The notes under the pieces are model-generated. The model had not been told where the DNA came from. It worked only from the letters and a program-made list of their open reading frames with translations, and made no database searches. Shown in pieces: positions 11,886 to 39,657 of a DNA stretch of 56,750 nucleotides (its first letter is position 1; the number at the start of each line of letters is the position of its first letter). Source of the stretch: an uncultured beta proteobacterium (lineage in GTDB: Bacteria; Pseudomonadota; Gammaproteobacteria; Burkholderiales; Burkholderiaceae_C); contig CAIJPE010000167.1 of assembly GCA_903822435.1 (NCBI GenBank), forward strand, positions 1 to 56,750, written 5' to 3'. The translations under genes and the position numbers were made by a program.

Positions 11886-11905
11886 GACTGTTAGCGCTAA
11901 CAGTC
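11886..11905. promoter_or_regulatory. LacI-family operator before the TonB-dependent receptor
   Basis: A perfect 20-bp palindrome whose core TGTTAGCGCTAACA matches the general LacI-family operator style (central CG, TGTTA/TAACA arms). Thirteen of the 14 core bases are identical to the site at 25769-25782 next to the LacI-family gene in this window. It lies 83 bp upstream of the receptor ATG, a position suited to repression. The rest of the gap (11703-11988) shows no other gene. Confidence 0.75.
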
Positions 11906-14283: not shown

Positions 14284-14291
14284 GCCTGGTC

Positions 14292-14317
14292 CGTCGGGCC
14301 CACCCTGGGGCCCGACG
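14292..14317 (+). terminator. Hairpin after the TonB receptor
   Basis: Arms CGTCGGGCCC (14292-14301) and GGGCCCGACG (14308-14317) with a 6-base loop, 9 bases after the receptor stop. No T-run follows, so termination is plausible but not certain. The rest of the gap to 14554 holds no gene I can support. Confidence 0.55.
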
Positions 14318-14554
14318 TGCCGCGGTCGATCAGGGCGGCCGGCTTGCGGCCGCTGCGCTTGCCGCCGTAGAGGCCGTGGCGCGACGGCTGCGCGAGTTGC
14401 CGCCGCCGCTCGCAAGCGCCGCGAATTCTTCACCGCCCGGCCGCGCCGGCGGGACCCCTTGGTCGCGGGCTAGGCGCTGGGGCCTGTACGGACTAACGTT
14501 CGGACTCGTGGACCGGCGCCGATGCCGGGCCGATTCGCCCCGCCGGAGATCGTC

Positions 14555-17827: not shown

Positions 17828-17831
17828 GGTG

Positions 17832-18971: not shown

Positions 18972-18975
18972 GCGT

Positions 18976-19806: not shown

Positions 19807-20702
19807 GCGGACTGCCCCACGCGGCGCAGGTAGACCGCCGTCACCACCAGCGAGATCAGGAACATGCCCACCGCCAGCGTGGAGCCATAGCCCACATCCA
19901 GGTATTCAATGGTGGTCTTGTGGATGAGCATGGCCAGCGTTTCGGTGCTGTTGCCAGGCCCGCCCTTGGTCATCGTGTACGGGATGTCGAAGGTTTGCAG
20001 CGCGGTGATGGTGCGGAAGATCAGCGCCACCACGATGCTGGGCATCAGCATGGGCACGGTCACCTGCCAGAACTGCTGCCAGCGGCTGGCACCGTCGACC
20101 TCGGCGGCTTCGTACAAGGTCCTGGGGATCATCTGCAGGCCGGCCAGCAGGATCAGCGCCATGAAGGAACTGGTCTTCCAGATGATGGTGGCGCAGATGG
20201 CCGCGAAGGCCCAGCCAGGGCGCAACAGCCACATGGCCGGCGCAGCGCCGCTCAGGCGGTGCAGCACGTCGTTGACCACGCCGAATTCGGTGTGGAAGAA
20301 CCACGCGAAGATCAGGCCGGCGAAGGACAGCGGCATGGCCCAGGGCAGCAGCAGCGCCAGGCGCACGGGCCACTGGCGCTTGAAGGGCAGGTTGGCCAGC
20401 AGCGCCAGGCCCAGCCCCACCAGCAGGGCGCCGGGCACGGTGATCAGCGTGATCAGCACCGTGTTCTTTGCCGCGTTCCAGAAATCGGTGTCGTCCAGGA
20501 CCAGGGCGTAGTTCTCCAGGCCCACGAAGCGCGTACCCTGCCCGCCGGACAGGCGCATGTCGAAGAAGCTGTTCACGATCAGGCGGCCGATCGGGTAGGC
20601 CACGATCAACGCCAGCAACAGCAGGGCCGGGGCGAGCATGAGCAGGCCCAGCGTCTTCTCGCTGGGGTCGCGCAGGCTGTCGATCAGGCTGCGGCTGGCC
20701 AT
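19803..20702 (-). CDS. Sugar ABC transporter permease (MalF-type)
   Basis: A 299-aa permease with six helices. The EAA loop is Y-E-A-A-E-V-D-G-A-S-R-W-Q-Q-F-W-Q-V-T-V-P near 194-214. It has the extended N terminus typical of MalF/UgpA partners in CUT1 systems. It begins 4 bp after the binding-protein gene and overlaps the MalG-type gene by 4 bp. Confidence 0.93.
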   Translation of the reverse strand: MASRSLIDSLRDPSEKTLGLLMLAPALLLLALIVAYPIGRLIVNSFFDMRLSGGQGTRFVGLENYALVLDDTDFWNAAKNTVLITLITVPGALLVGLGLALLANLPFKRQWPVRLALLLPWAMPLSFAGLIFAWFFHTEFGVVNDVLHRLSGAAPAMWLLRPGWAFAAICATIIWKTSSFMALILLAGLQMIPRTLYEAAEVDGASRWQQFWQVTVPMLMPSIVVALIFRTITALQTFDIPYTMTKGGPGNSTETLAMLIHKTTIEYLDVGYGSTLAVGMFLISLVVTAVYLRRVGQSA

Positions 20703-20706
20703 CGTC

Positions 20707-22007
20707 TCAGCGCATCACGCGGCCCAGCCGCGAGCCGATGTCGTTGGCGCCTTCCTCGGCCGTTCGGGTGCGGGCCAGCACGGCGCTGGTGGTCGTGCGG
20801 ATGATGTCGCTGACCCGGCCGTACTCCCTCGACAGCGGACGCGCCTTGCCGGCCACCACGCCGGGCGCGGCGTCCTTCAGCCAGGGCACGGCCTGCACGA
20901 CATCCGGGTCGGTGTAGACGCTGGCGTAGCTGGGCAGCAGTGCGCCACGCATGGCCAGGTATTTGCTGGACTCGGGGCTGGACAGGTAGCGCACCAGTTG
21001 CGCCGCCTCGGCCTTGTGGCGGCTGAAGGCGCTCACGGCCCACTGCCAGCCGCCCAGGCAGGTGACGCTGCGCCCGCCGGGCATCCCCACCGCCGGCAGC
21101 GCCATCACGCCCACCTGGCCCTTCACGCGGCTGTCGGCATCGTCGCGGAAGCGGTCCCAGGCAAAGCTCCAGTTCACCGCGAACAGCACCTGCCCGGCCT
21201 TGAATTCGTTGATCGTGTCCGGGGTCTTGACCTCGGCCACGTTGGGCTTGATGACGCCGGCGTCCACCATGCCCAGCCATTGCTGCAGGCCGCGGGCGGC
21301 AGCCGGGCGGTCCAGGGTGAGCTTGCCGCGGGCGTCGTTGAACTCCTTGCCCTGGCCCCAGTACGGCAGCAGGAAGGTGCACACCGCCCCTTCGATGGGG
21401 GCGCCCTGGATCGACAGGCCCTGCAGCCCCGGGCGGCCTGCCTGGGCCTCGCCCGCCTGCACCTTGCGGGCGGCTGCCGCCAGCTCGTCCCAGGTGCGCG
21501 GCTCGCCCAGGCCATACCGTTGCAGCAGGTCCTTGCGGTAGTACAGGAACATGGCGTCGGCAAAGGCCGGCAGCGCGGCCAGCTTGCCGTCCACCACGTT
21601 GGACGCGGCATAGCCTGGCAGGTAGGGCTTCAGCACCGTGGCCGCATCGCCGAGATAGGTGTCCAGCGGCTCGAGCCAGCCTGCGCCGAAGTACTGCGCC
21701 GGGTTGACGATGTCGATCAGGTAGATGTCGATCGCCGGGTCCTTGGCGTTGAGCACCGTGCTCAGGTACTGCCGCTGCAGCTCGCTCGTGGCGCCGCCGG
21801 ATTCGGTCTCGATGGTCAGCCCGGGGTGGCTGCGTGCGTAGTCGGCCAGCAGCTTGCGGGTGAGGTCGGGGCGCTGGTTCTGGCCACCGGCAAAGACGCG
21901 CAAGGTCGTCTGGGCCTGTGCGCCGCCCAGCGCCAGCCACGCGGCGGCCGCCAGCACCCACGGTGCCCACGGGCGCCCACCCCTGGCCCGCGCCGCGGCC
22001 GCGTTCG

Positions 22008-22011
<4 letters not shown>
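20707..22011 (-). CDS. ABC transporter extracellular sugar-binding protein
   Basis: A 434-aa periplasmic solute-binding protein (family 1, CUT1 class). A signal peptide runs to about residue 33, cut after A-Q-A. The mature part begins T-T-L-R-V-F-A-G-G and contains the usual D-I-Y-L-I-D-I-V and L-P-A-F-A-D-A-M-F-L-Y-Y-R-K-D-L-L sequences of the sugar-binding class. The start is a GTG that overlaps the TGA of the ATPase gene (GTGA); no ATG gives a signal peptide. The open frame extends far upstream but overlaps the ATPase gene there and is not coding. Confidence 0.9.
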
Positions 22012-23080
<1,069 letters not shown>

Positions 23081-23081
<1 letters not shown>

Positions 23082-23893
23082 CAGTAGGCGCCCTGCACCG
23101 GTGCTGGCGATGCGGCCGGCGCCACGGGGGCGTCGATTTCGCGCAGGGCCTTGGCCGCTGCCTGCGCCGCGCGCATGAGCAGCCCCAGGTCGGATGCCGC
23201 GGCCACGAAATCGTAGCCGATGGCACGGTAGCGGGCCACGGTCTCGGGCGTGCCGCCCACGGTGCCGATGGGCATGCCCAGGGCGTGGGCGCGGCGCGCC
23301 GCGTCGGCCATCTGCGCCATCACGGCCGGATGGGTCAGGTCGCCCACGTGGCCCATCGTGCCCGAGAGATCGCCCGGCCCGACGAAAAGCGCGTCCACAC
23401 CCGGTACGGCCGCGATGGCTTCGAGCTGGCCGATGGCTTCCACGGTCTCGAGCTGCAGCACGGCGCACAGGCCGGCATTGGCCGTGCGGAAGTAGTCGGG
23501 CGTGGTGCCGAAGCGCGAGGCCCGGCCCATGCCCGCCATGCCGCGCACGCCTTCAGGCGGATAGCGCATGGCAGCTACAGCGCGGGCCGCTTCCTCGGCG
23601 TTCTGAATAAAGGGGAAGAGCAGGGTGCGGGCCCCGGCATCCAGCACCCGCTTGACGGTGACCGTGTCGTTCCAGGGCACGCGCACGACCGGCTGCATCG
23701 GCGTGTTGCCCACGGCCTGCAACAGGTGCACCAGGTCCATCATGTCCAGCGGCGTGTGCTCCATGTCGAGCACGGCCCAGTCGAAGCCTGCCAGGCCCAC
23801 GGCCTCGGCCACCAGGGGGCTGGCCGACATGATCCAGGTCCCTACCGGGATGGCCTGGCTACGGGCTTGCAGCATGCGGGCAAAGGCGTTCAT
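23081..23893 (-). CDS. HpcH/HpaI family aldolase (2-keto-3-deoxy-sugar-acid aldolase)
   Basis: A 270-aa class II metal-dependent pyruvate aldolase. The family motif D-W-A-V-L-D-M-E-H-T-P is at about 38-48, V-R-V-P-W is near 70, metal ligand Glu is in L-Q-L-E-T near 148, and Asp in G-P-G-D-L-S near 176, with G-T-V-G-G near 213. Such enzymes cleave 2-keto-3-deoxy acids to pyruvate and an aldehyde. Placement directly after the IlvD/Edd dehydratase gene makes it the likely next step for that product. Confidence 0.9.
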
Positions 23894-23913
23894 GGCGGGT
23901 GTGTCCTGGCGGG

Positions 23914-25632
23914 TCAGTAGATGGCGGGTTCGGGCGTGGCCGTGGTGCCTTGCAGGAAGTCGAGGTCACAGCCCAGGTGGGCCTGTGTCACGTGCTGCTG
24001 GTGCAGCTGGGTGTAGCCGCGGCCGTAGGCCCGCGGCGGCGGTGTCCAGGCGGCACGGCGGCGGGCCAGTTCGGCATCGTCCACCTCCATGTGGATGCGC
24101 CGGGCCGGCACGTCCAGCTCGACCATGTCGCCCGTCCGCAACAAGGCCAGCGGGCCGCCGATGGCCGACTCGGGGCTGGCGTGCAGCACGCAGGTGCCGT
24201 AGTGGGTGCCGCTCATGCGGGCATCCGACAGGCGGACCATGTCGCGCACGCCGCGCTGCAGCAGCTTCTTCGGCAAGGGCAGGTTGCCCCATTCGGGCAT
24301 GCCCGGCGCGCCCACCGGGCCGGCGTTGCGCAGCACCAGCACGGTGTTCTCGTCCACGTCCAGCGCCGGGTCGCCCATGGCGGCCTGCATCTGCGCCTGG
24401 CTGTCGAATACCAGGGCGCGGCCGCGGTGCTGCAGGAAAGCCGGGCTGGCCGCGCTGGGCTTGATGACGGCGCCGTTCGGCGCCAGGTTGCCGGTGAGCA
24501 CGGCCAGTGCGCCGTGCGGGCTGACGGGGTTGGACAGCGGCCGGATGATGTCGTCGTCGGTGGCCTCGCGGCCCTCGAGCTGCGCGCGCAACGGCTGGCC
24601 GGTGACGGTGATCTCGTCCAGCGACAGCACGTCGCGCAGTCGGTTCATGAGTGCCGGCAGGCCGCCGGCGTAGTAGAAGTCTTCCATCAGCTTGTCGCCG
24701 CTGGGGAACAGGTTGGCCAGCACCGGCACGCGGCGGGCCATGTCGTCCAGGTCGGCCAGCGAGAGCGGCACGCCCGCCCGGCCGGCCATCGCGATGATGT
24801 GCACCACCGCGTTGGTGGAGCCGCCCAGGGCCATCTCGACCGCCGCGGCGTTGAGGAAGGCGCCGCGCGTGAGGATGCGCTGCGGCGTCAGGTCCTCGGC
24901 GATCATGGCCACGATGCGCTCGCCGCAGTCGGCGGCCATGCGCGGGTGGGCCGAGTCCATGGCCGGGATGCTGGTGCTCCCGGGCAAGGCCATGCCCAGC
25001 GCTTCGGCGATGGCCGTCATGGTGCTGGCCGTGCCCATGGTGTTGCAGGTGCCGGGGCTGCGCGTCATGCGCGACTCCAGCCGGATCCATTCGGCCGCAT
25101 CGATGCCGCCGGCCTGCAGTTCGTCCCAGAAGATCCGCGTGTGCGTGCCCGCACCCACGGTCTTGCCGCGGTGGCGGTCGTTGAGCATGGGGCCGGCAGG
25201 GCAAAACAGGGCGGGCAGGCCCATGCTGATGGCGCCCATCAGGAGGCCGGGGGTTGTCTTGTCGCAGCCGCCCAGCAGCACCGCGCCGTCGACGGGCAGG
25301 CTGCGCAGCAGCTCTTCCACCTCCATCGCCAGGAAATTGCGATACAGCATGGTGGTGGGCTTGACCATCACCTCGCCCAGGCTCATGGCGGGCAACTCGA
25401 AGGGCATGCCGCCGGCCAGCAGCACGCCGCGCTTGACGGCCTCGGCCCGCTCACGCAGGTGGGCGTGGCAGGGCGACAGGTCGCTCCAGGTGTTGATGAT
25501 GGCCACGATGGGGCGGCCCATCACGTCCTCGCGGCGCAGCCCCATCTGCTGCATGCGCTGGCGGTGCGCGAAGGCGCGCATGTCGTTGGCCGCAAACCAG
25601 CGGCGGCTGCGGAGATCGGAAGGGGCTCGCAT
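23914..25632 (-). CDS. IlvD/Edd family sugar-acid dehydratase
   Basis: A 572-aa [2Fe-2S] dehydratase that would convert an aldonate to its 2-keto-3-deoxy derivative. The cluster cysteines are at 55 (D-L-S-P-C), 123 (G-G-C-D-K) and 196 (S-P-G-T-C). Their spacing (68 and 73 residues) equals that recalled for characterised L-arabinonate and D-xylonate dehydratases, which supports a pentonate or related sugar acid over dihydroxy-acid or phosphogluconate substrates. Lys125 is the candidate Mg2+-ligand. The start at 25632 was chosen to give M-R-A-P-S-D-L-R-S-R-R-W-F; the frame upstream is Pro/Ala-rich and not coding. First gene of the operon. Confidence 0.9.
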   Translation of the reverse strand: MRAPSDLRSRRWFAANDMRAFAHRQRMQQMGLRREDVMGRPIVAIINTWSDLSPCHAHLRERAEAVKRGVLLAGGMPFELPAMSLGEVMVKPTTMLYRNFLAMEVEELLRSLPVDGAVLLGGCDKTTPGLLMGAISMGLPALFCPAGPMLNDRHRGKTVGAGTHTRIFWDELQAGGIDAAEWIRLESRMTRSPGTCNTMGTASTMTAIAEALGMALPGSTSIPAMDSAHPRMAADCGERIVAMIAEDLTPQRILTRGAFLNAAAVEMALGGSTNAVVHIIAMAGRAGVPLSLADLDDMARRVPVLANLFPSGDKLMEDFYYAGGLPALMNRLRDVLSLDEITVTGQPLRAQLEGREATDDDIIRPLSNPVSPHGALAVLTGNLAPNGAVIKPSAASPAFLQHRGRALVFDSQAQMQAAMGDPALDVDENTVLVLRNAGPVGAPGMPEWGNLPLPKKLLQRGVRDMVRLSDARMSGTHYGTCVLHASPESAIGGPLALLRTGDMVELDVPARRIHMEVDDAELARRRAAWTPPPRAYGRGYTQLHQQHVTQAHLGCDLDFLQGTTATPEPAIY

Positions 25633-25768: not shown

Positions 25769-25782
25769 TGTTACCGCTAACA
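25769..25782. promoter_or_regulatory. LacI-family operator in the dehydratase/regulator gap
   Basis: TGTTACCGCTAACA, a near-perfect palindrome with a central CG, in the 190-bp divergent gap between the dehydratase operon and the LacI-family gene. It differs by one base from the core at 11889-11902. Probably bound by the regulator encoded at 25823, with autoregulation likely. Confidence 0.75.
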
Positions 25783-25822: not shown

Positions 25823-26920
25823 GTGACCCAGCCCCTGCCCCTGCCGCCCGCCGATCCCGCGTCGCCCGCCCGCCAGGCCCGGCGCGGGCACGGCCGGGTG
25901 ACCTTGAAGGAAGTGGCCCTGGCTGCAGGGGTCACGCCCATCACGGTCTCGCGCTTCCTGCGCGAACCGGCCGTGGTGGCCGCTGAAACGGCCCAGCGCA
26001 TCCGTGCGGCCCTGGCGCAGACGGGTTACGTGCCCAACAAGCAGGCCGGGCTGCTGGCCAGCGGTGTGTCCAACGTGGTGGCCGTGCTGCTACCCAATCT
26101 GGCCAACTCGATCTTTGCCGAGACGGCCCAGGGCTTGAGCGATGGCCTGCAGGCCGCGGGATTCGAACTGCTCATCGCGTCCACGGGTTATTCGCTGGCC
26201 CGTGAAGAGCATCAGTTGCGCGCGCTGCTCGGCTGGCACCCGGCGGCGCTGGTCGTCACCGGGCGTCGGCATTCGCCGGGTGCGCTGCAGTTGCTGGCCC
26301 ACGCGCAGGCCTGCGGCACGCCGGTGATCGAGATCTGGGATCACCACCCGCCCGAGCCCGGCCAGCGCCGCGCCAGCTTCACCCAGATCGGCTTCAACCA
26401 CGACGAGGTCGGCCGCGCGATGGCCGAACACCTGCTGCGCGCCGGGCACCGTGTGCTGGCCTATGTGGACAGCGGCATCGCCGAGGACTACCGCGCCCAT
26501 GAGCGCGGCATGGCCTTCGCGGCCGCGGCCCAGGCTGCCGGCGCGTCCGTGACCGTGGTGCGTTCGCCCTCCGGCGACGCCTTCGATGCCGGGCGACAGG
26601 TGCTGGGCGACCTGGTGCGGGCCGGCCCGCCAGCGATCACCGCGGCAGCCTTTGCCAACGACCACATCGCCTGCGGCGCCATGCTGGAGGCGGTGCGGCG
26701 CAAGGTCGACGTCCCGGGGCGGCTGGCGCTGCTAGGCTTTGGCGACTTCGCGATATCGCGCCAGCTCACGCCGTCGATGAGCAGCGTGCAGTTGCCGCGG
26801 CACGCCATCGGCACCGAGACCGCGCGCTCGCTGCTGGATGCCCTGAAGCATGGCGTTCCTGCGGTGCCCGCCTGCCTGCCGTGGGCGCTGGTCGTGCGGG
26901 GCAGCACCGCAGGCCGCTGA
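25823..26920 (+). CDS. LacI-family transcriptional regulator
   Basis: A 365-aa repressor-type protein. The N-terminal helix-turn-helix is V-T-L-K-E-V-A-L-A-A-G-V-T at about 26-38, with P-I-T-V-S-R-F-L as recognition helix and hinge K-Q-A-G-L-L-A-S-G near 73. The periplasmic-binding-protein-like sensor domain spans about 80-355, with G-H-R-V-L and F-A-N-D-H-I-A-C-G motifs and relatedness to GntR/IdnR-type gluconate regulators. GTG start at 25823 follows the operator closely; no better start is seen. Divergent from the sugar operon and the obvious candidate for both matched operators. Confidence 0.92.
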   Translation: MTQPLPLPPADPASPARQARRGHGRVTLKEVALAAGVTPITVSRFLREPAVVAAETAQRIRAALAQTGYVPNKQAGLLASGVSNVVAVLLPNLANSIFAETAQGLSDGLQAAGFELLIASTGYSLAREEHQLRALLGWHPAALVVTGRRHSPGALQLLAHAQACGTPVIEIWDHHPPEPGQRRASFTQIGFNHDEVGRAMAEHLLRAGHRVLAYVDSGIAEDYRAHERGMAFAAAAQAAGASVTVVRSPSGDAFDAGRQVLGDLVRAGPPAITAAAFANDHIACGAMLEAVRRKVDVPGRLALLGFGDFAISRQLTPSMSSVQLPRHAIGTETARSLLDALKHGVPAVPACLPWALVVRGSTAGR

Positions 26921-26945: not shown

Positions 26946-27749
26946 TCAGGCCGGACGCTGCAGCAGGTTGACGTAGTCGTGCTGCGCCGTGACCACGGTG
27001 CTCACCCGCCACTCCACGGGCCGGCCGCCCAGCCCGATGGCCACGCGCCGCACCTGCAGCACCGGCTGCCCGGGCGTGACGCCCAGCACGCGGGCCGCGA
27101 CGCGGTCGGCGCCCATGGCGCGCAGGCGCTCGTGGGCCCGCACCACCGTGATGCCGAATTCGGACTGGTACAGGTGGTAAATGGTGCTGGGCCGCTCGCG
27201 CCAGCGCTTCTCGGTCAGGCCCTTGAACAGGGCGGCGGGGATGAGCAGGCGGTCGTGGACCACGGCCTTGCCCTGCAGCAGCAGGCGGTTTTCCACCTGC
27301 AAGGCCGGTTCGCCCGGCTTGAGCGCGAGTGCGTCCGCGGCGTCTTCATCCAGGCGCGTGCGCTCGAAGGACACCAGCTCCACCGTGGGCGCTTCGCGCA
27401 GGCCGTCGCTGCGTTCGACGTGGAAGAACTGGAACAGGAAGCGGTCACTCGTGTGGAGCGCCACGAAGGTTCCGCGCCCCTGGCGCCGCACCAGGATGTG
27501 CTCGGCCACGAGGTCGTCCACCGCCCGGCGCAGGGTGCCCACCGAGACGCCGAAGGCCGCTGCCAACTCCGACTCGCTGGGCAGCGCCTGGCCGGGTGAG
27601 ACGCGCCCGGCCTCGATGGCCTGCAGCAGCGCGCGCTTGACGGCGCGGAACAGCGGCATGCCGGCCGCATCGGGCGCGATGGGAGCCAGTCCGGCGAAGG
27701 TGGACAGGGATGGGGCGGCGGCATGGCGTGCCGGTCGGTGGGCAGGCAT
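26946..27749 (-). CDS. GntR/HutC-type regulator (UTRA domain) of the sulfolactate cluster
   Basis: A 267-aa regulator. A winged helix GntR domain lies at about 31-98 (P-L-F-R-A-V-K-R-A-L-L near the start, then L-P-S-E-S-E-L-A-A-A-F-G-V-S, R-R-Q-G-R-G-T-F-V). The UTRA ligand domain follows (Y-H-L-Y-Q-S-E-F-G near 185, then G-Q-P-V-L-Q-V-R-R-V-A). It is divergent from suyA, with an inverted repeat between them. Ligand is probably sulfolactate or a pathway intermediate, by position only. ATG at 27749 is preferred because an upstream in-frame start would run across the operator. Confidence 0.88.
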   Translation of the reverse strand: MPAHRPARHAAAPSLSTFAGLAPIAPDAAGMPLFRAVKRALLQAIEAGRVSPGQALPSESELAAAFGVSVGTLRRAVDDLVAEHILVRRQGRGTFVALHTSDRFLFQFFHVERSDGLREAPTVELVSFERTRLDEDAADALALKPGEPALQVENRLLLQGKAVVHDRLLIPAALFKGLTEKRWRERPSTIYHLYQSEFGITVVRAHERLRAMGADRVAARVLGVTPGQPVLQVRRVAIGLGGRPVEWRVSTVVTAQHDYVNLLQRPA

Positions 27750-27772
27750 GGCCGATTCTAGGCAGGTCGCCC

Positions 27773-27803
27773 ACAAGTCATCCATGTCATCTAGATGACT
27801 TGT
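27773..27803. promoter_or_regulatory. GntR-type operator between regulator and suyA
   Basis: Perfect 10-bp arms ACAAGTCATC (27773-27782) and GATGACTTGT (27794-27803), 11 bp apart. A second perfect palindrome GTCATCTAGATGAC (27786-27799) shares the right arm, so the half-site GTCATC occurs three times. The right arm ends one base before the candidate -35 of suyA. Confidence 0.75.
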
Positions 27804-27832
27804 TTGACTCCCCGGCCCGGCCCCGTGATACT
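27804..27832 (+). promoter_or_regulatory. Candidate sigma-70 promoter for suyA
   Basis: TTGACT (27804-27809, five of six matches to -35), a 17-base spacer, then GATACT (27827-27832, four of six to -10). Transcription would start near 27839. A strong AGGAG site (27866-27870) precedes the suyA ATG. Position directly beside the operator suggests control at RNA polymerase binding. Confidence 0.55.
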
Positions 27833-27876
27833 GCCCGCCGGCCGGCCCCAAGGCGCCGGTGGTACAGGAGCAAGAG

Positions 27877-28158
27877 ATGATTCATTTCGTATTGCACGAC
27901 GCCCACGACAGCGTGGCCGTGGTGGTGGTTGAAGGCGTGACGGCGGGCATGGCGCTCAACGGCTGGATCATGGACGAGGACCGCATGGTCGCGCTCGACG
28001 CCCGGCAGGACATCCCCATCGGCCACAAGGTGGCGCTGAAGAACCTGAGCGTGGGCGATACCGTCATCAAGTACGGCATCGACATGGGCAAGGTCGTTGC
28101 GCCCATCCAGGCGGGCGAGCATGCGCATGTGCACAACATCAAGACAAAGAGATGGTGA
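27877..28158 (+). CDS. suyA: (R)-sulfolactate sulfo-lyase subunit alpha
   Basis: A 93-aa SAF-domain protein of the UxaA N-terminal type, the small subunit of (2R)-3-sulfolactate sulfo-lyase, which splits sulfolactate into pyruvate and sulfite. Typical features are the I-G-H-K-V-A-L segment near 48 and the G-D-x-V-I-K-Y-G motif near 62-69, then H-A-H-V-H-N at the end. The small/large split form, not the fused 490-aa UxaA form, is characteristic of SuyAB. Alternative: a split altronate or galactarate dehydratase small subunit, judged much less likely given slcC, comC and sorAB downstream. Confidence 0.88.
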   Translation: MIHFVLHDAHDSVAVVVVEGVTAGMALNGWIMDEDRMVALDARQDIPIGHKVALKNLSVGDTVIKYGIDMGKVVAPIQAGEHAHVHNIKTKRW

Positions 28159-28241
28159 CACCCCCGAAGCGGCTTTCGCCGCTCCCCCCCCCCAGGGGGC
28201 AACCCCGGTGGCCGGGCGGAGCCCGATCCGCGGCGTTTGCT
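28159..28241. repeat. GC-rich intergenic repeat, copy 1
   Basis: Between suyA and suyB. Pattern: CCCCCGAAGCGG, a short dyad (GCGGC..GCCGC), a 10-base C run, AGGGGG, then GGCGGAGCCCGATCCGCGGCG. The last 21 bases match copy 2 at 19 positions. Repeats of this style are common in Comamonadaceae-type genomes (general knowledge). It separates two genes that must be co-expressed, so it probably does not stop transcription. Confidence 0.55.
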
Positions 28242-28271
28242 TGACCAGACATCCCGTTCGAAGGATTTGTA

Positions 28272-29447
28272 ATGAGCATCATCGATAAGAGCACGACGTT
28301 CATGGGCTACCGGCGCGAGAATGGTCGCGTGGGGGTTCGCAATCACGTCATCATCCTTCCGCTGGACGACCTGTCCAATGCGGCGGCCGAGGCCGTGGCA
28401 CACAACATCAAGGGTGCGATGGCCATTCCGCACCCGTATGGGCGGCTGCAGTTCGGCGCTGACCTCGACCTGCACTTCCGCACGCTGATCGGCGCAGGCT
28501 GCAACCCCAACGTGGCGGCGGTCGTGGTCATCGGCATCGAGGACGGCTGGACGCAGAAGGTGGTCGACGGCATCAAGACCACGGGCAAGCCGGTGGTGGG
28601 CTTCGGCATCGAGCAGCACGGCGACCACGACACCATCATGCGGGCCAGCAAGGCCGCGCGCGAGTACGTGCAGTGGGCCAGCGAGAAGCAGCGCGAGGTC
28701 TGCGCGATCCAGGAACTGTGGGTGAGCACCAAGTGCGGCGAAAGCGACACCACCAGCGGCTGCGGTTCCAACCCTTCGGTGGGTGACGCCTTCGACAAGC
28801 TCCACGCCCTGGGCAGCACCCTGTGCTTCGGCGAGACGACCGAACTCACCGGCGGCGAGCAGATCGTGGCCGCCCGCTGCGCGAACGACGCGGTGCGCGA
28901 ACAGTTCATGTTCATGTTCAACCGCTACCAGGACGTGATCAACCGCCACAAGACCTCCGACCTGTCGGACAGCCAGCCCACCAAGGGCAACATCGCCGGC
29001 GGCCTGACCACCATCGAAGAGAAGGCGCTGGGCAACATCCAGAAGATCGGCAAGAAGTGCACGGTCGACGGCGTGATCGACAAGGCAGAGATGCCCACGC
29101 ACCCGGGCCTGTGGTTCATGGATTCGTCTTCCGCGGCGGCCGAGATGGTCACTTTGTGCGCGGCCTCGGGCTATGCGGTGCACTTCTTCCCCACGGGGCA
29201 GGGCAATGTCATCGGCAACCCCATCGTGCCCGTGATCAAGATCTGCGCCAACCCGCGCACGGTGCGCACGATGAGCGAACACGTGGACGTGGACGTGACG
29301 GGCCTGCTGCAGCGCGAGATGACGCTGGACCAGGCCGGCGACAAGCTGCTGGCGTGCATGCTGCGCACGGCCAACGGGCGGCTGACGGCTGCCGAGGCGC
29401 TGGGCCATCGCGAGTTCGTGATGACCCGCCTGTACGAAAGCGCTTGA
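28272..29447 (+). CDS. suyB: (R)-sulfolactate sulfo-lyase subunit beta
   Basis: A 391-aa UxaA/altronate-dehydratase-family large subunit, catalytic part of SuyAB. It opens with [16 protein letters not shown], as the characterised SuyB proteins I recall. Conserved Cys-containing segments likely bind metal: [12 protein letters not shown] (near 156) and a [11 protein letters not shown] motif near 309. Product sulfite is presumably passed to SorAB and pyruvate to central metabolism. AAGGA lies about 8 bases before the ATG. It is 113 bp from suyA because of the repeat. Confidence 0.92.
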
Positions 29448-29448
29448 T

Positions 29449-29585
29449 GTTGCCCCCGAGCTCGCTCGCGCTCGCTACTTCCCGAGGGGGCCATCCGCCG
29501 ACGGACCGGCGGAGCCGGATCCGTGGCGGGAAGCCTGGCCGGGGGGATGCGCCCCGTGGGTCGCGCTTGGCGCACAACGCGGGGG
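29449..29585. repeat. GC-rich intergenic repeat, copy 2
   Basis: Between suyB and slcC. It has the same skeleton as copy 1: GCCCCCGAG, a dyad of GCTCGC/GCGAGC type, CCCGAGGGGG, then GGCGGAGCCGGATCCGTGGCG, followed by about 60 further bases with GGGGGGAT/GCGCCCC pairing. No gene is supported in it. Confidence 0.5.
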
Positions 29586-29594
29586 GCCATTGAG

Positions 29595-30521
29595 ATGGCT
29601 CGAATCGTCATTACGGAGGTCATGGACAGCCCGGCCGTGGCGCAGTTGGCTGCGGTGCACGACGTGCTGTACGACCCGCTGCTGGTGGACCAGCCTGCTC
29701 GGCTGTTGGCCGAAGCGCCGTCGGCCGACGCGCTGGTGGTCCGCAACCGCACGCAGGTCCGGGGCGAGTTGCTGGCGGCCTTGTCGCGCTGCCGCGTGGT
29801 CGGGCGGCTCGGGGTGGGTCTGGACAACATCGACGTGCCGGGCTGCGAGGCGCGGGGCCTGCCGGTGATCCCGGCCACCGGGGCCAATGCGCTCAGCGTG
29901 GCCGAGTACGTCATCGGCACCGCCCTCGTGCTGCTGCGCGGCGCCTACCAGTCCAACGCCGCAGTGGTGGCCGGCAAGTGGCCCCGCCAGGCGCTGTCCA
30001 ACGGCCGCGAGGCCGCAGGCAAGACGCTCGGGCTGGTGGGCTTCGGCTCCATCGGCCAGCTCACGGCCCGGCTCGCCCAGGCCGTGGGCCTGAAGGTGCA
30101 GGCCTGCGACGCGCTGATGCCGCCGGGCGACCCGGTGTATGCCGGGGCCGGCGTGGCCGGTGTGAGCCTCGAGGCGCTTCTGGCCGGCTCCGACGTGATC
30201 AGCTTGCATGTGCCGCTGGTGGACAGCACGCGGGGCTTGTTCAACGCCACCCGCATCGCCACCATGAAGGCGGGCAGCGTGCTGATCAACACGGCCCGCG
30301 GCGGCATCGTGGACGAAGCCGCGCTGGTGGCCGCCCTGCGCAGCGGTCACCTGGGTGGCGCTGCCCTGGATGTGTTCGGCACCGAGCCGTTGCCGCCTGC
30401 CCCCCAGTTCGCCGATTGCCCGAACCTGATTCTCACGCCGCACATCGCGGGCGTGACGGCCGAGGCCAACGAGCGCGTGAGCACCTTGATCGCCCGCAAG
30501 GTGCTGGAGGCACTGGCATGA
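29595..30521 (+). CDS. slcC: (S)-sulfolactate dehydrogenase (D-2-hydroxyacid dehydrogenase family)
   Basis: A 308-aa NAD+-dependent dehydrogenase. The Rossmann loop is L-G-L-V-G-F-G-S-I-G at about 144-153. The catalytic Arg is in N-T-A-R-G-G-I-V near 234, Glu is in G-T-E-P near 265, and His is in T-P-H-I-A-G near 285. In the sulfolactate pathway this fold oxidises (S)-sulfolactate to 3-sulfopyruvate. Here it sits between suyB and comC, with an ATGA overlap to comC. Named from context plus fold; generic phosphoglycerate dehydrogenase-like activity is the alternative. Confidence 0.83.
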   Translation: MARIVITEVMDSPAVAQLAAVHDVLYDPLLVDQPARLLAEAPSADALVVRNRTQVRGELLAALSRCRVVGRLGVGLDNIDVPGCEARGLPVIPATGANALSVAEYVIGTALVLLRGAYQSNAAVVAGKWPRQALSNGREAAGKTLGLVGFGSIGQLTARLAQAVGLKVQACDALMPPGDPVYAGAGVAGVSLEALLAGSDVISLHVPLVDSTRGLFNATRIATMKAGSVLINTARGGIVDEAALVAALRSGHLGGAALDVFGTEPLPPAPQFADCPNLILTPHIAGVTAEANERVSTLIARKVLEALA

Positions 30522-31519
30522 AGCTTCCCGTCGCCGAGGCCCGGGCCCTGGTCGCCCATGCCCTGGGCCAGGCCGGCGCGGGTCCCGAGATGGCCCGCAG
30601 CACGGCGCAAGCCCTGGTGCTGGCCGAGGCACAAGGCCTGGGTTCGCACGGCCTGAGCCGGGTGGCGCAGTACACCATGCACCTGCGCAATGGCCGGGCC
30701 GATGGCGCCGCTCTGCCCAAGCTGCTGCGGCGCAAGGGCAGCGCGTTGCTGGTGGACGCCGGCACGGGCCTGGCCTTTCCGGCCTGTGAACTGGCGGTGC
30801 GCGAAGCGATGGCCACCGCCCGCGAACACGGCGTGGCCATCGCCGGCGTGGTCCGCAGCCACCATGCGGGCGTCATCGTCGACCACCTCCGTCCCGCCGC
30901 CGCTGCCGGCCTGGTGGGCCTGGGTCTGGCCAACTCGCCCGCGGCCATGCCGGCCGCGGGGGGCCGACACGCCATCTTCGGCACCAACCCCGTGGCCGCG
31001 GTCTTCCCGCGGCAGGGCGCCGATGCATTGATGATCGATCTCAGCCTGAGCGAGGTCGCCCGTGGCAAGCTGATGGTGGCCGCCAAGGAAGGCCGGGCCA
31101 TTCCCGCCGGCTGGGCCCTGGACGCGGCGGGCCAGCCCACCACCGACCCGAAGGCGGGGCTGTCGGGCTCCATGCTGCCCATGGGCGCGGCCACCTCGCC
31201 CAAGGGCGCGATGCTGGCCCTGGTGGTCGAACTGCTGGTCACGGCGCTGATCGGCGCGAATTTCGGCTTCGAAGCCTCCAGCTTCTTCGTCGACGAGGGC
31301 AACCAGCCCGGCCTGGGCCAGCTATTCATCCTGATCGACCCTGCCGCTCTGGCCGGGCAGGCCAGCTACCTGGCCCGCGTCGAGGTGCTGGTGGCCGAGA
31401 TGCTCGTGGACGAGGGCGTGCGCCTGCCCGGTGCCCGGCGTGAGGCGCTGCTTCGGCGGGCCCAGGCCGAAGGCATCGAGGTGGCCGACGCCCTGATCGC
31501 CGCCTGGCGCGGCAGCTGA
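30518..31519 (+). CDS. comC: (R)-sulfolactate dehydrogenase (Ldh2/malate dehydrogenase family)
   Basis: A 333-aa NAD(P)-dependent dehydrogenase of the malate/L-lactate/ComC family. Family marks include L-G-S-H-G-L-S-R near 42-49, R-S-H-H-A-G near 112 (catalytic His), and F-G-T-N-P near 151 (active site). ComC was first described in coenzyme M synthesis and is reused in bacterial sulfolactate metabolism to reduce sulfopyruvate to (R)-sulfolactate, the SuyAB substrate. Together with SlcC it would act as a two-enzyme racemase. Start overlaps the slcC stop by ATGA. Confidence 0.85.
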   Translation: MKLPVAEARALVAHALGQAGAGPEMARSTAQALVLAEAQGLGSHGLSRVAQYTMHLRNGRADGAALPKLLRRKGSALLVDAGTGLAFPACELAVREAMATAREHGVAIAGVVRSHHAGVIVDHLRPAAAAGLVGLGLANSPAAMPAAGGRHAIFGTNPVAAVFPRQGADALMIDLSLSEVARGKLMVAAKEGRAIPAGWALDAAGQPTTDPKAGLSGSMLPMGAATSPKGAMLALVVELLVTALIGANFGFEASSFFVDEGNQPGLGQLFILIDPAALAGQASYLARVEVLVAEMLVDEGVRLPGARREALLRRAQAEGIEVADALIAAWRGS

Positions 31520-31538
31520 ACACGGTTCCATCCCAACC

Positions 31539-32501
31539 ATGCAACGTCGAACGCTTCTCAGTGCGGCCACCCTGTTGCTGCCCGGCCTGGTCGGTGCCCA
31601 GGACTATCCCAAGGCCGGCGCCACGCTGCGCTACGTGGTGCCCTTTCCGCCCGGAGGTCTGACCGACGTGATGGCCCGCCAGGTCGGCCAGCAACTGGCC
31701 GAGCACTGGAAGGTCAATGTCGTCATCGACAACAAGCCCGGCGGCGGCGGCCAGATCGGCGCGGCCGATGTCGCCAAGGCCCCCGGCGACGGCCAGACCC
31801 TGCTGGCCATCACGCTCACGCACGCGGCCAACGTCACGCTGTACAAGGGCCGCGCCAGTTTCGACTTCCAGAAGGACCTGCGGCCCGTGGCCCTGCTGGC
31901 GGGTTCGCCCATGCTGGTGGTGGTGCCCGCGGCCAGTTCCATCACCGATTTCGCGGCCCTGGTGCAGCAGGCCAAGGTGCGCAAGCTCAACGCCGGCTCC
32001 AGCGGCAACGGCACGCCGCCGCATCTCACGCTGGCCCTGTTCAACGACCTGTACAAGACCAGCATCCAGCACGTGCCGTACAAGGGTGGGGCCCCCTCCA
32101 TCACCGACCTCATCGGCGGCCAGCTGGATGTGATCTTCTCCAACCTGCCCGAGAGCGTGGCCCAGGTCAAGAGCGGCAGGCTGCGCGCACTGGCCATCGC
32201 CAGCGGCGCCCGCCACCCGCTGGTGCCCGATGTTCCCACCACCGCCGAGGCCGGCGCCCCGCAACTGCTGGTGGAAAACTGGACCGGCGTGATGGCGCCG
32301 GCCAGCACGCCCGAAGCGGCGGTGGCCAAGCTCGGCGCTGAAGTGCTCAAGATCATGGCCGCCCCCGATGTCGAGGAGCGCGCCCGCGCCCAGGGCTTCC
32401 GGGTGGATGCCCGCGGCCCGCAAGCCTTCGCGCGGTTCCTGTCCGACGAAACTGCCCGCTGGGCCCGCGTGATCGCTGCGGCCGGCATCACCACCGAATA
32501 G
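31539..32501 (+). CDS. TctC/Bug-type substrate-binding protein
   Basis: A 320-aa periplasmic binding protein of the tripartite tricarboxylate transporter (TctC/Bug) family. A short signal peptide ends near V-G-A-Q at about 21. Family motifs are V-V-P-F-P-P-G-G-L-T-D near 34-44, D-N-K-P-G-G-G-G-Q-I-G-A near 66 and Y-K-G-G-A-P near 181. No TctA or TctB genes are in the window; orphan binding proteins of this type are very common in Burkholderiales and may share permeases encoded elsewhere. Sulfolactate ligand is inferred from position (19 bp after comC, 30 bp before sorA). Confidence 0.88.
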   Translation: MQRRTLLSAATLLLPGLVGAQDYPKAGATLRYVVPFPPGGLTDVMARQVGQQLAEHWKVNVVIDNKPGGGGQIGAADVAKAPGDGQTLLAITLTHAANVTLYKGRASFDFQKDLRPVALLAGSPMLVVVPAASSITDFAALVQQAKVRKLNAGSSGNGTPPHLTLALFNDLYKTSIQHVPYKGGAPSITDLIGGQLDVIFSNLPESVAQVKSGRLRALAIASGARHPLVPDVPTTAEAGAPQLLVENWTGVMAPASTPEAAVAKLGAEVLKIMAAPDVEERARAQGFRVDARGPQAFARFLSDETARWARVIAAAGITTE

Positions 32502-32531
32502 CATCGGCCCCGTGTCACTTCCGGAGTACCC

Positions 32532-33773
32532 ATGAGCCGTTCCTCGCCCCCTGACTTCCAACGCCGGCGCCTGGCCGCCGGCACCGCCGCCTGGGCTGCC
32601 ACGGGCGGCCTGCTGGGCTTGTCCGGCCCGGCGCGTGCGCAGACGCCGCCGCGCACAGTGGACCTGCCCTTTGCCAACGGGCGCCGCACCCTGGTGGCCT
32701 ATCCCGAGAAGCGGCCCCTGATGGTGCTGACTTCGCGACCGCCGCAGCTGGAAACTCCGTTCGAGGTCTTCAACGAAGGCCTGATCACCCCCAACGATGC
32801 ATTCTTCGTGCGGTACCACAACGTCGGCATCCCGACCTCGGTGGATCCCGACAAGCACCGCATCAAGATCGCGGGCAACGCGGTGGGCAAACCCTTCGAG
32901 CTCAGCCTGGATGAGTTGCGCACGCAGTTCAAGCCGGTGGAGTTGCTGGCCGTCAACCAGTGCTCGGGCAACAGTCGAGCGCTGTTCAACCCGCGCGTCA
33001 CCGGGGGCCAGCTGGGCAACGGCGCCATGGGCAACGCCCGCTGGGTCGGCGTGTCCCTGAAGGAAGTGCTCGCCCGGGCCGAACTGAAGAACACCGCACG
33101 CCAGGTGACCTTCGACGGCCTGGACACCACGGCCTTCGGCGGCGGAGACTTCGTCAAGGCCCTGGACGTGGGCCATGCCATGGACGGCGAGGTCATGATC
33201 GCCTACCAGATGAACGGTGCTGACCTGCCCATGCTCAACGGCTACCCGGTGCGCCTGGTGGTGCCGGGCTACTACGGCACGTACTGGGTCAAGCACCTGT
33301 CGGAGATCCAGGTCATCGACACCGAGTTCGACGGCTTCTGGATGAAGCCCGCCTACCGCATCCCCGACAACGCCTGCGCCTGCGTCGACCCCGGCAAGGC
33401 TCCTTCGGCCACGCGCCCCATCGGCCGCTTCAACGTGCGGTCCTTCATCACATCGCTGCAGGACGGCTCGCGGCTGGTGGCAGGCCAGGCCACCGTGGTG
33501 CGCGGCATCGCTTTCGATGGCGGCCAGGGCATCCGCGAAGTGGCCTTTTCCACCGATGGCGGGCAAAGCTGGCGCGGCGCCCAGTTGGGCACCGACATGG
33601 GCCGCTATTCGTTTCGCGAGTTCACCTTCGGCTTCACGCCGGGCAAGGGCACCAGCGACCTGCGCGTGCGGGCCTGGAACCGCTCGGGCCAGAGCCAGCC
33701 GGCCGAGGCCCTGTGGCAGCCCGCGGGCTACATGCGCAACGTGGTGGAGTCGATCCAGGTGGTGGCATCATGA
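32532..33773 (+). CDS. sorA: Sulfite:cytochrome c oxidoreductase, molybdopterin subunit
   Basis: A 413-aa periplasmic sulfite dehydrogenase. A twin-arginine signal (Q-R-R-R-L-A-A-G) is cut near A-R-A-Q at about 36. Moco-binding features match the sulfite oxidase family: F-F-V-R-Y-H-N near 94-100 (Arg and His of the active site), the cofactor Cys in V-N-Q-C-S-G-N-S-R near 142, and the active-site Tyr region G-Y-Y-G-T-Y-W-V-K near 242-250. A C-terminal dimerisation domain starts near 290. It oxidises sulfite made by SuyAB to sulfate and passes electrons to SorB, whose gene overlaps by ATGA. Confidence 0.92.
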   Translation: MSRSSPPDFQRRRLAAGTAAWAATGGLLGLSGPARAQTPPRTVDLPFANGRRTLVAYPEKRPLMVLTSRPPQLETPFEVFNEGLITPNDAFFVRYHNVGIPTSVDPDKHRIKIAGNAVGKPFELSLDELRTQFKPVELLAVNQCSGNSRALFNPRVTGGQLGNGAMGNARWVGVSLKEVLARAELKNTARQVTFDGLDTTAFGGGDFVKALDVGHAMDGEVMIAYQMNGADLPMLNGYPVRLVVPGYYGTYWVKHLSEIQVIDTEFDGFWMKPAYRIPDNACACVDPGKAPSATRPIGRFNVRSFITSLQDGSRLVAGQATVVRGIAFDGGQGIREVAFSTDGGQSWRGAQLGTDMGRYSFREFTFGFTPGKGTSDLRVRAWNRSGQSQPAEALWQPAGYMRNVVESIQVVAS

Positions 33774-34132
33774 AGCGCTCCGACGCTTGCAACTTCGCGC
33801 GCGTCGCACGCCGTGCGGCGCTGGCCCTGGGCCTGGTGACCAGCCTGGCCGGCGCTGCCTGGGCAGGGCCCAAGACCATCGAGCTGCCGCCCGATGGCGT
33901 GGTACTCAAGGCCAGCAGCCTGCCGGGTTACGGCAAGGCGCAAGCGCAATGCGTGGCCTGCCACTCGGCGGAGTACATGCTGTATCAGCCGCCCACGGCC
34001 CCGCGGCCCTACTGGGACGCCATGGTCAAGCGCATGAAGACCGTGTTCAAGGCGCCCGTGGACGAGGCCGACATGCCGGCCATCGTCGACTACCTCGTCA
34101 AGACCTACGGCAACGAGCAGCCGCCGCCCTGA
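33770..34132 (+). CDS. sorB: Sulfite dehydrogenase cytochrome c subunit
   Basis: A 120-aa small monoheme c-type cytochrome. A signal peptide ends near A-W-A at about 32. The heme site is C-V-A-C-H near 61-65, and the Met ligand is likely in the A-D-M-P segment near 103 that follows the W-D-A-M-V-K-R-M helix. SorB takes electrons from the Moco centre of SorA and feeds a soluble cytochrome or terminal oxidase. ATG at 33770 chosen because it gives the signal peptide and overlaps the sorA stop (ATGA). Confidence 0.9.
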   Translation: MKRSDACNFARVARRAALALGLVTSLAGAAWAGPKTIELPPDGVVLKASSLPGYGKAQAQCVACHSAEYMLYQPPTAPRPYWDAMVKRMKTVFKAPVDEADMPAIVDYLVKTYGNEQPPP

Positions 34133-39181: not shown

Positions 39182-39646
39182 ATGACGACGCGACTGACGG
39201 TCAATGGCAGGACGATCGATGCCAAGGCCGAACCGGATACCTCGCTGCTGTGGGTCATCCGCGATGAAATTGGATTGACTGGCACGAAGTTCGGTTGCGG
39301 CGCAGGCTTGTGCGGCGCCTGCACCGTGCACGTCGATGGCGTGCCGGTGCGGTCATGCCAGACGCTGCTCTCGTCGGTCTCGGGCAAGCAGGTTTCCACG
39401 GTCGAGAGCCTGCCGGTCGCCAACACCAGCGCCCTGCAGCGTGCCTGGATCGCTCACGACGTGCCGCAATGCGGCTACTGCCAGTCGGGCCAGCTCATGA
39501 GCGCCGCTGCGCTGCTCAAGGCCAACCCCAACCCCAGCGATGCCGAGATCGACGGCGCCATGAGCGGCAACATCTGCCGCTGCGGCACCTACGGCCGGAT
39601 CCGGGCTGCGATCAAGACCGCCGCCGCCGAACTGCGCAAGGCCTGA
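39182..39646 (+). CDS. (2Fe-2S) subunit of a molybdenum hydroxylase (IorA-like)
   Basis: A 154-aa iron-sulfur subunit of xanthine-oxidase family enzymes. The plant-type cluster uses [10 protein letters not shown] near 39-48 and a Cys near 60; the second cluster uses Q-C-G-Y-C-Q-S-G-Q near 97 and C-R-C-G-T-Y near 132. It passes electrons from the Moco subunit encoded next (11-bp gap). The 142-bp region before it holds no other gene. Confidence 0.93.
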
Positions 39647-39657
39647 GGAGCAACGCC

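Follow-up and report, generated by a model that had tools for sequence, protein, structure and literature searches.

We analysed a stretch of 56,750 nucleotides of DNA from an uncultured beta proteobacterium of the Burkholderiaceae_C (contig CAIJPE010000167.1 of assembly GCA_903822435.1, positions 1 to 56,750; hereafter the window), in which a run of genes for the desulfonation of sulfolactate adjoins a minus-strand run resembling the genes for cleavage of sulfoquinovose (SQ), a sugar of plant sulfolipid, by the sulfoglycolytic Entner–Doudoroff (sulfo-ED) route (Table 1). Domains and families of the window proteins were assigned with Pfam scans and with NCBIfam models at their curated cut-offs. 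The sulfolactate run (26946–34132) comprises eight open genes, a divergent gntR followed by suyA, suyB, slcC, comC, tctC, sorA and sorB, and their order and strands are those given by a sequence-only reading of the locus. That reading had described a complete sulfolactate desulfonation island. The sulfolactate genes stand, but the word complete does not, since the sulfo-ED-type run next door (17045–25632) had been left out.

Table 1. Genes and predicted operators of the two adjoining runs and of the linked TonB receptor, in window coordinates
Feature	Position	Strand	Remarks
Second exact predicted LacI operator	11889-11902	.	86 bp before TonB receptor gene
TonB-dependent receptor, predicted outer-membrane entry for sulfosugar	11989-14283	+	PF00593 + PF07715
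Short-chain dehydrogenase/reductase (SDR), predicted sulfoquinovose 1-dehydrogenase	17045-17827	-	PDB 9gwu match
GH188-type NAD-dependent sulfoquinovosidase (predicted activity), Gfo/Idh protein	17832-18971	-	
ATP-binding cassette (ABC) transporter permease 2	18976-19806	-	PF00528
ABC transporter permease 1	19803-20702	-	PF00528
Solute-binding protein, SmoF-like	20707-21957	-	PDB best match
ABC transporter ATPase, UgpC type	22008-23081	-	
HpcH/HpaI aldolase, predicted 2-keto-3,6-dideoxy-6-sulfogluconate (KDSG) aldolase	23081-23893	-	PF03328
IlvD/Edd-family dehydratase, predicted 6-deoxy-6-sulfogluconate dehydratase	23914-25632	-	PF00920
Predicted LacI operator before the sulfo-ED-type run	25769-25782	.	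Palindrome TGTTANCGNTAACA
LacI-family regulator, predicted for sulfoquinovose genes	25823-26920	+	PF00356 + PF13377; divergent from dehydratase
GntR/UTRA regulator, predicted for suy genes	26946-27851	-	PF00392 + PF07702; divergent from suyA
Predicted GntR operator between gntR and suyA	27785-27800	.	Palindrome RGTCATNNNNATGACY
suyA, small subunit of (R)-sulfolactate sulfo-lyase	27877-28158	+	93 aa
suyB, large subunit	28272-29447	+	391 aa; GD_AH second + C-terminal domains
slcC, predicted (S)-sulfolactate dehydrogenase	29595-30521	+	308 aa; 2-Hacid_dh domain
comC, predicted (R)-sulfolactate dehydrogenase, Ldh2 family	30518-31519	+	Ldh_2 domain
tctC, orphan solute-binding protein	31539-32501	+	PF03401
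sorA, predicted periplasmic Mo sulfite dehydrogenase	32532-33773	+	Oxidored_molyb + Mo-co_dimer
sorB, c-type cytochrome subunit	33770-34132	+	NCBIfam SorB 107 bits vs cut-off 93

The sulfolactate genes and their relatives

The assignment of the split UxaA-type pair as SuyAB was examined against the related altronate and galactarate dehydratases, UxaA and GarD. SuyB is 84% identical to the protein of the C. pinatubonensis hps-suyAB cluster and 67% identical to that of Paracoccus, against 28.6% for E. coli UxaA. Of 316 matching records among 72,556 plasmid records, 13 matched at 60–90% identity and 303 below 60%; among the matches listed, a top group at 62–84% is followed by a fall from 62% to 40%. 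The best of them, in C. pinatubonensis HN-2, lies in a run hpsN-hpsO-(major facilitator superfamily protein)-(dehydrogenase)-UxaA-UxaA, in agreement with the hpsRNOUPsuyAB cluster named in the accessible part of PMC11382572, and many of the at least 120 protein-search matches listed for SuyB bear the name (2R)-sulfolactate sulfo-lyase subunit beta. In a maximum-likelihood tree of 29 rows (21 SuyB, E. coli UxaA, two paralogues from the same genome and five plasmid relatives), all 21 SuyB rows fell on one side of a branch with 100/100 support and the other eight outside it; the tool warned of long branches among these eight, and the tree was built without GarD, whose structure matches SuyB at 131 bits. 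According to the accessible part of PMC6336799, enzymes of the UxaA/GarD type conserve four cysteines at the iron site, sulfolactate sulfo-lyase being the exception. In our alignment the columns of E. coli UxaA C132, C166 and C199 hold cysteine in six of the eight outside rows and in none of the 21 SuyB rows, while that of C264 holds it in all 29 aligned rows.

These results bear on whether the split enzyme might be a dehydratase of sugar acids or hydroxy acids and not a sulfo-lyase. Its sole NCBIfam match is a galactarate dehydratase model, far under the cut-off, and a plasmid of Variovorax sp. SRS16 (L091, 1–11134) carries a cluster of the same complement, with GntR, a hydroxyacid dehydrogenase, a split UxaA pair, TctC and Ldh; the large subunit there shares only 37% identity with the window SuyB and falls outside its clade. 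The gene complement alone therefore cannot prove sulfolactate as the substrate. The identity gap among plasmid matches, the clade shared with proteins from the suyAB clusters of C. pinatubonensis and Paracoccus, the three cysteines missing from every SuyB row and the adjoining sorAB genes all argue against a dehydratase, which we rejected as very improbable; the earlier assignment of the pair as SuyAB is thereby upheld. The predicted role of suyAB-slcC-comC-sorAB in sulfolactate breakdown is supported by the identity, the tree, the cysteine pattern and the conserved operator described below.

The remaining products fit the same picture to differing degrees. SuyA, whose only domain match is SAF, below threshold, shares 71% identity with its counterpart in the C. 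pinatubonensis cluster, 48–52% with those of Methylobacterium and Paracoccus and 32% with a UxaA-type small subunit. SlcC shares 60–61% identity with the hydroxyacid dehydrogenases encoded in the suyAB clusters of Paracoccus and Methylobacterium and 37% with the one from the Variovorax look-alike, ComC reaches 48–51% with its counterparts in other suyAB clusters and 30% with the enzyme of the look-alike, and TctC is 58% identical to the TctC that follows suyAB in C. pinatubonensis. SorA and SorB, as had been claimed, both pass the curated NCBIfam cut-offs (SorA with 658 bits against 600). SorA matches PDB 2blf_A at 521 bits over residues 3–372 of a 373-residue chain and retains Cys104, Arg55, His57, Arg109 and Tyr236 (2blf numbering, counted by hand), which we take to be active-site residues. 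SorB has the haem c motif CVACH and matches nearly the whole of 2blf_B at 79 bits. The gntR gene may start at an inner codon at 27659. A foreign origin of the island was considered on base composition and rejected, the GC content of its parts (64.9–72.3%) lying around the 69.8% of the window.

The grouping of the suy genes recurs in close relatives, of which we took the best 80 loci, some on cut contigs. Where at least 3 kb of upstream sequence was available (67 loci), suyA accompanied suyB in every case and gntR was present in 56; where at least 6 kb was available downstream (53 loci), comC was found in 49, slcC in 41 and tctC in 25. Given these frequencies for suyA, comC and slcC, the grouping is not due to chance. 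A SuyZ-type exporter gene stands beside the suy cluster in 18 of the 80 loci, among them that of Piscinibacter defluvii SH-1 (L036), which has no SorAB linked to it. In eight loci from Caenimonas, Ramlibacter and related bacteria (L025, L029, L032, L041, L043, L044, L054, L056), comC follows suyB and no slcC was detected.

The sulfite dehydrogenase genes behave differently. None of the 53 loci with at least 6 kb downstream has sorA or sorB beside suyAB. Among 299 genomes of the family, the window's own included, SorA (sought at E <=1e-120) occurred in 23 and SuyB in 39; the two coincided in three, as expected by chance, and shared a contig only in the window's genome, although some linkage may be concealed by contig ends. 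We accordingly rejected the idea that SorAB generally partners SuyB in this family. A Methylobacterium plasmid suyAB cluster also contains SorAB (SorA 60% identical), and in another family genome (L148) SorAB is found close to a SuyZ-like gene and to proteins that resemble TauE and Xsc by eye. In this, SorAB resembles a movable module for sulfite disposal.

The adjoining sulfo-ED-type run

The dehydratase and lacI genes to the left of gntR recur beside suyAB in relatives, and the minus-strand run from 25632 to 17045 was therefore examined. The SDR finds its best PDB match in the SQ dehydrogenase of Pseudomonas putida (9gwu, 287 bits; next 239) and keeps the catalytic tetrad, Asp99, Arg101, Gln198 and the sulfonate-site residues Arg152 and Arg154 (positions counted by hand, with residue roles from the accessible part of PMC12133307); in place of these two arginines, the SDR structures ranked second and third have Gln/Gly and Leu/Asn. 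The GH188 protein matches the SqgA structures 8qc3 and 8qc2 at 311 and 307 bits and 8zn9 at 296, the next match scoring 70. Of the residues described in the part of PMC10755693 available, the alignment shows all of Arg166 and Lys172 of the sulfonate site and Lys107, Tyr136, Glu189, His193 and His321 around the substrate to be kept (positions counted by hand, as chain index minus 13). The backbone contact of the sulfonate site, Leu170, is Tyr in the window and in four relatives (L016, L018, L049, L072), and Leu in the B. multivorans protein (L123); the Tyr form is a minority variant, described as rare and from other GH188 groups, and is reported in actinobacterial clusters also holding SuyAB genes (PMC11465081). 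The solute-binding protein matches SmoF, a sulfoquinovosyl-glycerol-binding protein, at 425 bits, and the next protein at 202, a comparison of overall match only.

The sulfo-ED families PF13561, PF00920 and PF03328 (PMC9594981, in the part available) thus have counterparts here in an SQ dehydrogenase with the sulfonate-site arginines, a PF00920 dehydratase and a PF03328 aldolase. The same kinds of gene occur on plasmids of Shinella HZN7 and B. multivorans, and the accessible part of PMC13372026 assigns Shinella to sulfo-ED. The Shinella cluster has an SMP-30 lactonase, an SDR, an aldolase, GH188 nearby and a dehydratase 65% identical to that of the window; the window aldolase is 52–57% identical to those of the Shinella and B. 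multivorans clusters.

Could the run instead serve an ordinary pentose or other sugar, for example by a non-phosphorylative L-arabinose type of pathway, or sulfofucose, and adjoin suyAB by accident? The dehydratase passes the NCBIfam cut-off for L-arabinonate dehydratase and its best PDB matches are not sulfo-enzymes, the best PDB match of the aldolase is a 2-dehydro-3-deoxy-galactarate aldolase, and the best NCBIfam model for the SDR is D-xylose 1-dehydrogenase, under its cut-off. Arg154 is also not universal, and is the weaker mark because the Shinella SDR has Asn at this position. The dehydratase of the Shinella cluster, however, carries the very name L-arabinonate dehydratase, so that the name is no evidence for a pentose, and the GH188, SQ-dehydrogenase and SmoF matches, two of them with sulfonate-binding residues, do not uphold a pentose pathway. 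As for sulfofucose, the dehydratase of that pathway belongs to PF13378/PF02746 (PMC12421959, in the part available) and not to PF00920. We regard both alternatives as improbable.

Regulation, co-occurrence and outlying steps

The palindrome TGTTANCGNTAACA stands in the spacer between lacI and the dehydratase gene, which occur together in relatives as well. Of 12 such loci tried, one was left out because its spacer was too short; the palindrome was exact in nine of the other 11 spacers and had one mismatch in two. The 6.07 Mb assembly (rated 98.5% complete) holds two exact copies and one with a single mismatch, and none of the reversed-pattern control. The second exact copy precedes a TonB-dependent receptor gene, and homologues of this receptor lie in SQ clusters of L140 (63%) and L022 (58%), with a further one (45%) about 6 kb from a GH188 gene on a Sphingobium plasmid. 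On these two independent lines, the operator copy and the homologues in SQ clusters, the receptor would belong to a predicted sulfosugar regulon. It is followed by a gene for a 365-aa PEP-CTERM protein (14522–15619) with metallopeptidase matches below threshold, and the two (11989–15619) may form one transcript. L132 (genome G012) has a further exact LacI operator (368–381), on the far side of lacI.

The gntR–suyA spacer has a palindrome of its own, RGTCATNNNNATGACY, exact in 34 of 64 such spacers and with one mismatch in 23, the window among the latter. A GntR-type box with one mismatch also stands between lacI and the dehydratase gene in two relatives (L016, L019). At one mismatch the box has 50 sites in the genome, against eight for the reversed control; 23 of the 50 were scored with a matrix built from 63 training sites, giving 27.5 for the window site, 20.0 for C97:11007 and 19.0 for C262:6100, a spacer site that precedes a TauE gene by several genes. 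As a marker of a wider regulon the box was rejected, since these next sites score within roughly the lowest five of the training sites.

With respect to linkage, at least two SQ genes lie near suyB in 13 of the 80 relative loci and at least one in 15 (cut contigs included). They are divergent and upstream of suy, as in the window, in L006, L009, L015 and L027, downstream in L016, L018, L019, L022, L036 and L062, and upstream on the same strand in L049, without a break, and in L072, with two minus-strand genes between. L132 has a single run of dehydratase, then GH188 and SQ dehydrogenase, then gntR, suyAB, tctC, slcC, comC and suyZ. In L021 (1–6720) ABC transporter and aldolase genes and part of a GH188 gene stand beside gntR-suyAB, with no dehydratase or LacI gene detected between.

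Co-occurrence extends beyond the linked loci. GH188 was found in 31 of the 299 family genomes, in 23 of them at 70% identity or more (the close type), a count tempered by the fact that in many genomes only six candidates were scored. SuyB is present in 20 of the 23 genomes with close GH188, in one of the eight with distant GH188, and in 19 of the 276 without close GH188; the Fisher p value of 1e-17 ignores relatedness. Linkage alone does not explain the association, since the two genes are 2.3 Mb apart on a 3.6 Mb contig in G017 (1.4 Mb if circular), 97 kb apart on one contig in G201, and on different contigs in G005, G113 and G183. In the three close-GH188 genomes that lack SuyB (L138–L140), the SQ cluster includes an SMP-30 lactonase as well as an aldehyde dehydrogenase, both of which a pathway ending at sulfolactate would require. 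Among eight SQ clusters from SuyB-bearing genomes, some of them cut (L132, L133, L135, L136, L137, L141, L142, L143), one has a lactonase (L142, 45%) and one an aldehyde dehydrogenase (L137). Genome G267 has two SQ clusters, one beside suyAB (L136) and one near an aldehyde dehydrogenase (L137), possibly a mineralising and an excreting version. Within the window's own genus the unit is patchy: one sampled genome has an 82% identical SuyB and no GH188, and two have neither.

These counts argue against a reading in which the two runs are independent neighbours, the suy genes serving external sulfolactate and the sulfo-ED-type run forming sulfolactate for export. That reading draws on the separate regulators, on the lack of cross-sites in the window, on relative suyAB loci, most of which have no SQ genes within reach and seven of which (of 80) have suyAB near HpsN instead, and on the TctC binding protein among the suy genes. 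Set against it are the frequency of SuyB in close-GH188 genomes, the co-directional SQ-suy runs of L049 and L132, and the consideration that sulfo-ED would form sulfolactate in the cytoplasm, where SuyAB would act. We consider independence unlikely.

The steps that the two runs do not supply were sought elsewhere in the assembly. Its sole match to PF08450, the lactonase family, lies on contig C250 beside an aldose-epimerase-like gene and is 61–65% identical to the cluster lactonases of L138–L140. A GabD-like aldehyde dehydrogenase on C330 is 72–76% identical to dehydrogenases beside SQ clusters (L137–L140), the next paralogue in the genome reaching 39–42%. For sulfite export, no SuyZ-type (PF03601) protein was found in the assembly at E <=0.001, so that sulfite must reach the periplasm through another exporter, for which four TauE-family (PF01925) proteins, none of them in the window, are candidates by family. 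A TauE gene near an aldehyde dehydrogenase on C49 was considered as a lost piece of the pathway and rejected, its neighbours being unrelated by eye. TctA occurs twice in the assembly (once cut by a contig end) and not in the window. The sequence-only reading was therefore right that the window has no sulfate/sulfite exporter and no TctAB permease. In leaving uptake to genes elsewhere it probably asked the wrong question, the likely import being of SQ or its glycoside through the adjoining ABC transporter. The sole HpsN match in the genome, at 35% identity, is probably HisD, and 2,3-dihydroxypropane-1-sulfonate (DHPS) was rejected as the substrate on that ground. Further along the window (39182–41829), genes for a 154-aa protein and a 723-aa molybdopterin-type oxidoreductase (matching xanthine/aldehyde oxidoreductase models, all far under cut-off) are unrelated to the sulfonate genes.

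Proposed pathway and relation to known systems

Taken together, the two adjoining runs are likely, at a probability that we put at roughly three in four, to carry SQ to two pyruvates and sulfate within one cell. What the sequences establish is the genes, their families, the conserved residues and palindromes and the co-occurrence; the steps of the scheme are deduced from these. In this scheme, sulfoquinovosyl glycerol or SQ would enter by way of the TonB receptor and the ABC transporter of SmoF type, GH188 would release SQ from the glycoside, and SQ dehydrogenase would form the lactone, which would open spontaneously or through the lactonase on C250 to give sulfogluconate. The IlvD/Edd dehydratase and the HpcH aldolase would then yield pyruvate and (S)-sulfolactaldehyde, and an aldehyde dehydrogenase outside the island, perhaps the GabD-like protein, would oxidise the latter to (S)-sulfolactate. 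Sulfoglycolysis gives (S)-sulfolactate and SuyAB accept the (R)-form, according to the available parts of PMC11382572 and PMC9594981, which explains the presence of SlcC and ComC: these would interconvert the two through sulfopyruvate, and SuyAB would cleave (R)-sulfolactate to sulfite and the second pyruvate. Sulfite would leave the cytoplasm by a candidate TauE-family exporter and be oxidised to sulfate by periplasmic SorAB. LacI, with its two operators, would control sugar uptake and cleavage, and GntR the sulfolactate genes.

Several observations count against this scheme. The island itself has no lactonase, sulfolactaldehyde dehydrogenase or sulfite exporter. The C330 dehydrogenase lies beside an apparent alaS (by eye) and passes the cut-off of the succinate-semialdehyde dehydrogenase subfamily, so that it may be a housekeeping enzyme and its role with sulfolactaldehyde is a guess. 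The best NCBIfam family for ComC, L-sulfolactate dehydrogenase, is reached at 186 bits, far under the cut-off of 500. No operator is common to the two spacers of the window, the best cross-matches having four and five mismatches, and where relative loci extend 8 kb or more in both directions (45 loci), two or more linked SQ genes occur in only five.

The nearest known system is the tandem of Paracoccus wurundjeri Merri, in which, in the part of PMC12421959 available, a single gene region likewise combines an Entner–Doudoroff-type route from a sulfohexose to sulfolactaldehyde with SlcC/ComC, SuyAB and an ABC transporter, and sulfite is the end product; it is backed by growth, proteomics and enzymes of the sugar half. 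That pathway starts from sulfofucose, uses the PF13378/PF02746 dehydratase and belongs to an alphaproteobacterium, and the terms SorAB and sulfite dehydrogenase are absent from its main text as far as available. The window, in contrast, has a PF00920 dehydratase, GH188, a SmoF-like protein, SorAB and a TonB receptor, and comes from a betaproteobacterium. With the sulfo-ED pathway of Pseudomonas putida SQ1 it shares the SQ dehydrogenase and the PF00920 and PF03328 enzymes, and with the co-culture partner of that strain, Paracoccus pantotrophus NKNCYSA, SuyAB and a sulfite dehydrogenase downstream (PMC9594981, in the part available, where SlcC/ComC are said to accompany SuyAB in most Paracoccus). 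There the halves belong to two organisms; here both lie in one 17 kb stretch, with the lactonase and the sulfolactaldehyde dehydrogenase outside it.

Other SQ clusters with SuyAB have been predicted from genomes, namely 'extended' sulfoglycolysis with a transaldolase route (sulfo-TAL) in Thermotogae and Chloroflexi (PMC9594981, in the part available) and, in Actinobacteria, Embden–Meyerhof–Parnas-type (sulfo-EMP-type) genes with a GH188 that has the same Leu-to-Tyr change as that of the window (PMC11465081). These resemble the window in having SuyAB in an SQ cluster and differ in cleavage route and phylum. Clusters of C. pinatubonensis (with hps genes), Methylobacterium oryzae and Paracoccus plasmids combine SuyAB with mixtures of GntR, SlcC, ComC, TctC or SorAB; that of M. 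oryzae has SuyAB, SlcC- and ComC-like genes, SorA, SorB and SuyZ together, whereas the window has SorAB and its genome lacks SuyZ. No sulfo-ED set is among the features listed beside the four suyAB clusters of these bacteria. We found no description of sulfo-ED joined to SuyAB in the open-access literature, the texts covered being mostly partial. The joining of SuyAB to other sulfosugar pathways is thus already in print, and sulfo-ED with SuyAB would appear from the sequence to be a new variant.

Sulfoglycolysis is usually described as two-tiered, with one bacterium excreting sulfolactate and another desulfonating it. A linked unit of sulfo-ED and SuyAB/SorAB predicts instead the use of all six carbons and the release of sulfate by one cell. 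We lean, with some reserve, towards the wider view that this bacterium is a self-contained SQ mineraliser which needs no partner species, that it and a set of its relatives in the Burkholderiales join sulfo-ED to SuyAB in one cell, with a dedicated TonB receptor for the sulfosugar governed by the same LacI switch, and that SorAB was captured here, which would let the island itself convert the sulfolipid head group to two pyruvates and sulfate.

The matter bears on a compound produced at about 10 billion tons a year (PMC10755693, in the part available) and on a 2026 stable-isotope study, of which part was available (PMC13372026). There a Burkholderiaceae amplicon sequence variant (ASV 16) was labelled from 13C-sulfoquinovose, as were Comamonadaceae ASVs. 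No canonical cluster was found for ASV 16, and cross-feeding was suggested, related genomes encoding the degradation of DHPS and sulfolactate. The rule of that study for a canonical sulfo-ED cluster asks for all core enzymes, lactonase included, within ten open reading frames. The window has no SGL lactonase, so that its genome would escape the rule while carrying the rest, and because the lactonase lies outside we file the island as working like sulfo-ED and not as a canonical cluster. A one-cell unit of this kind makes the labelling result testable. The TonB receptor would be a candidate outer-membrane transporter for sulfosugars. If the proposal is true, lineages now read as cross-feeders would become primary degraders.

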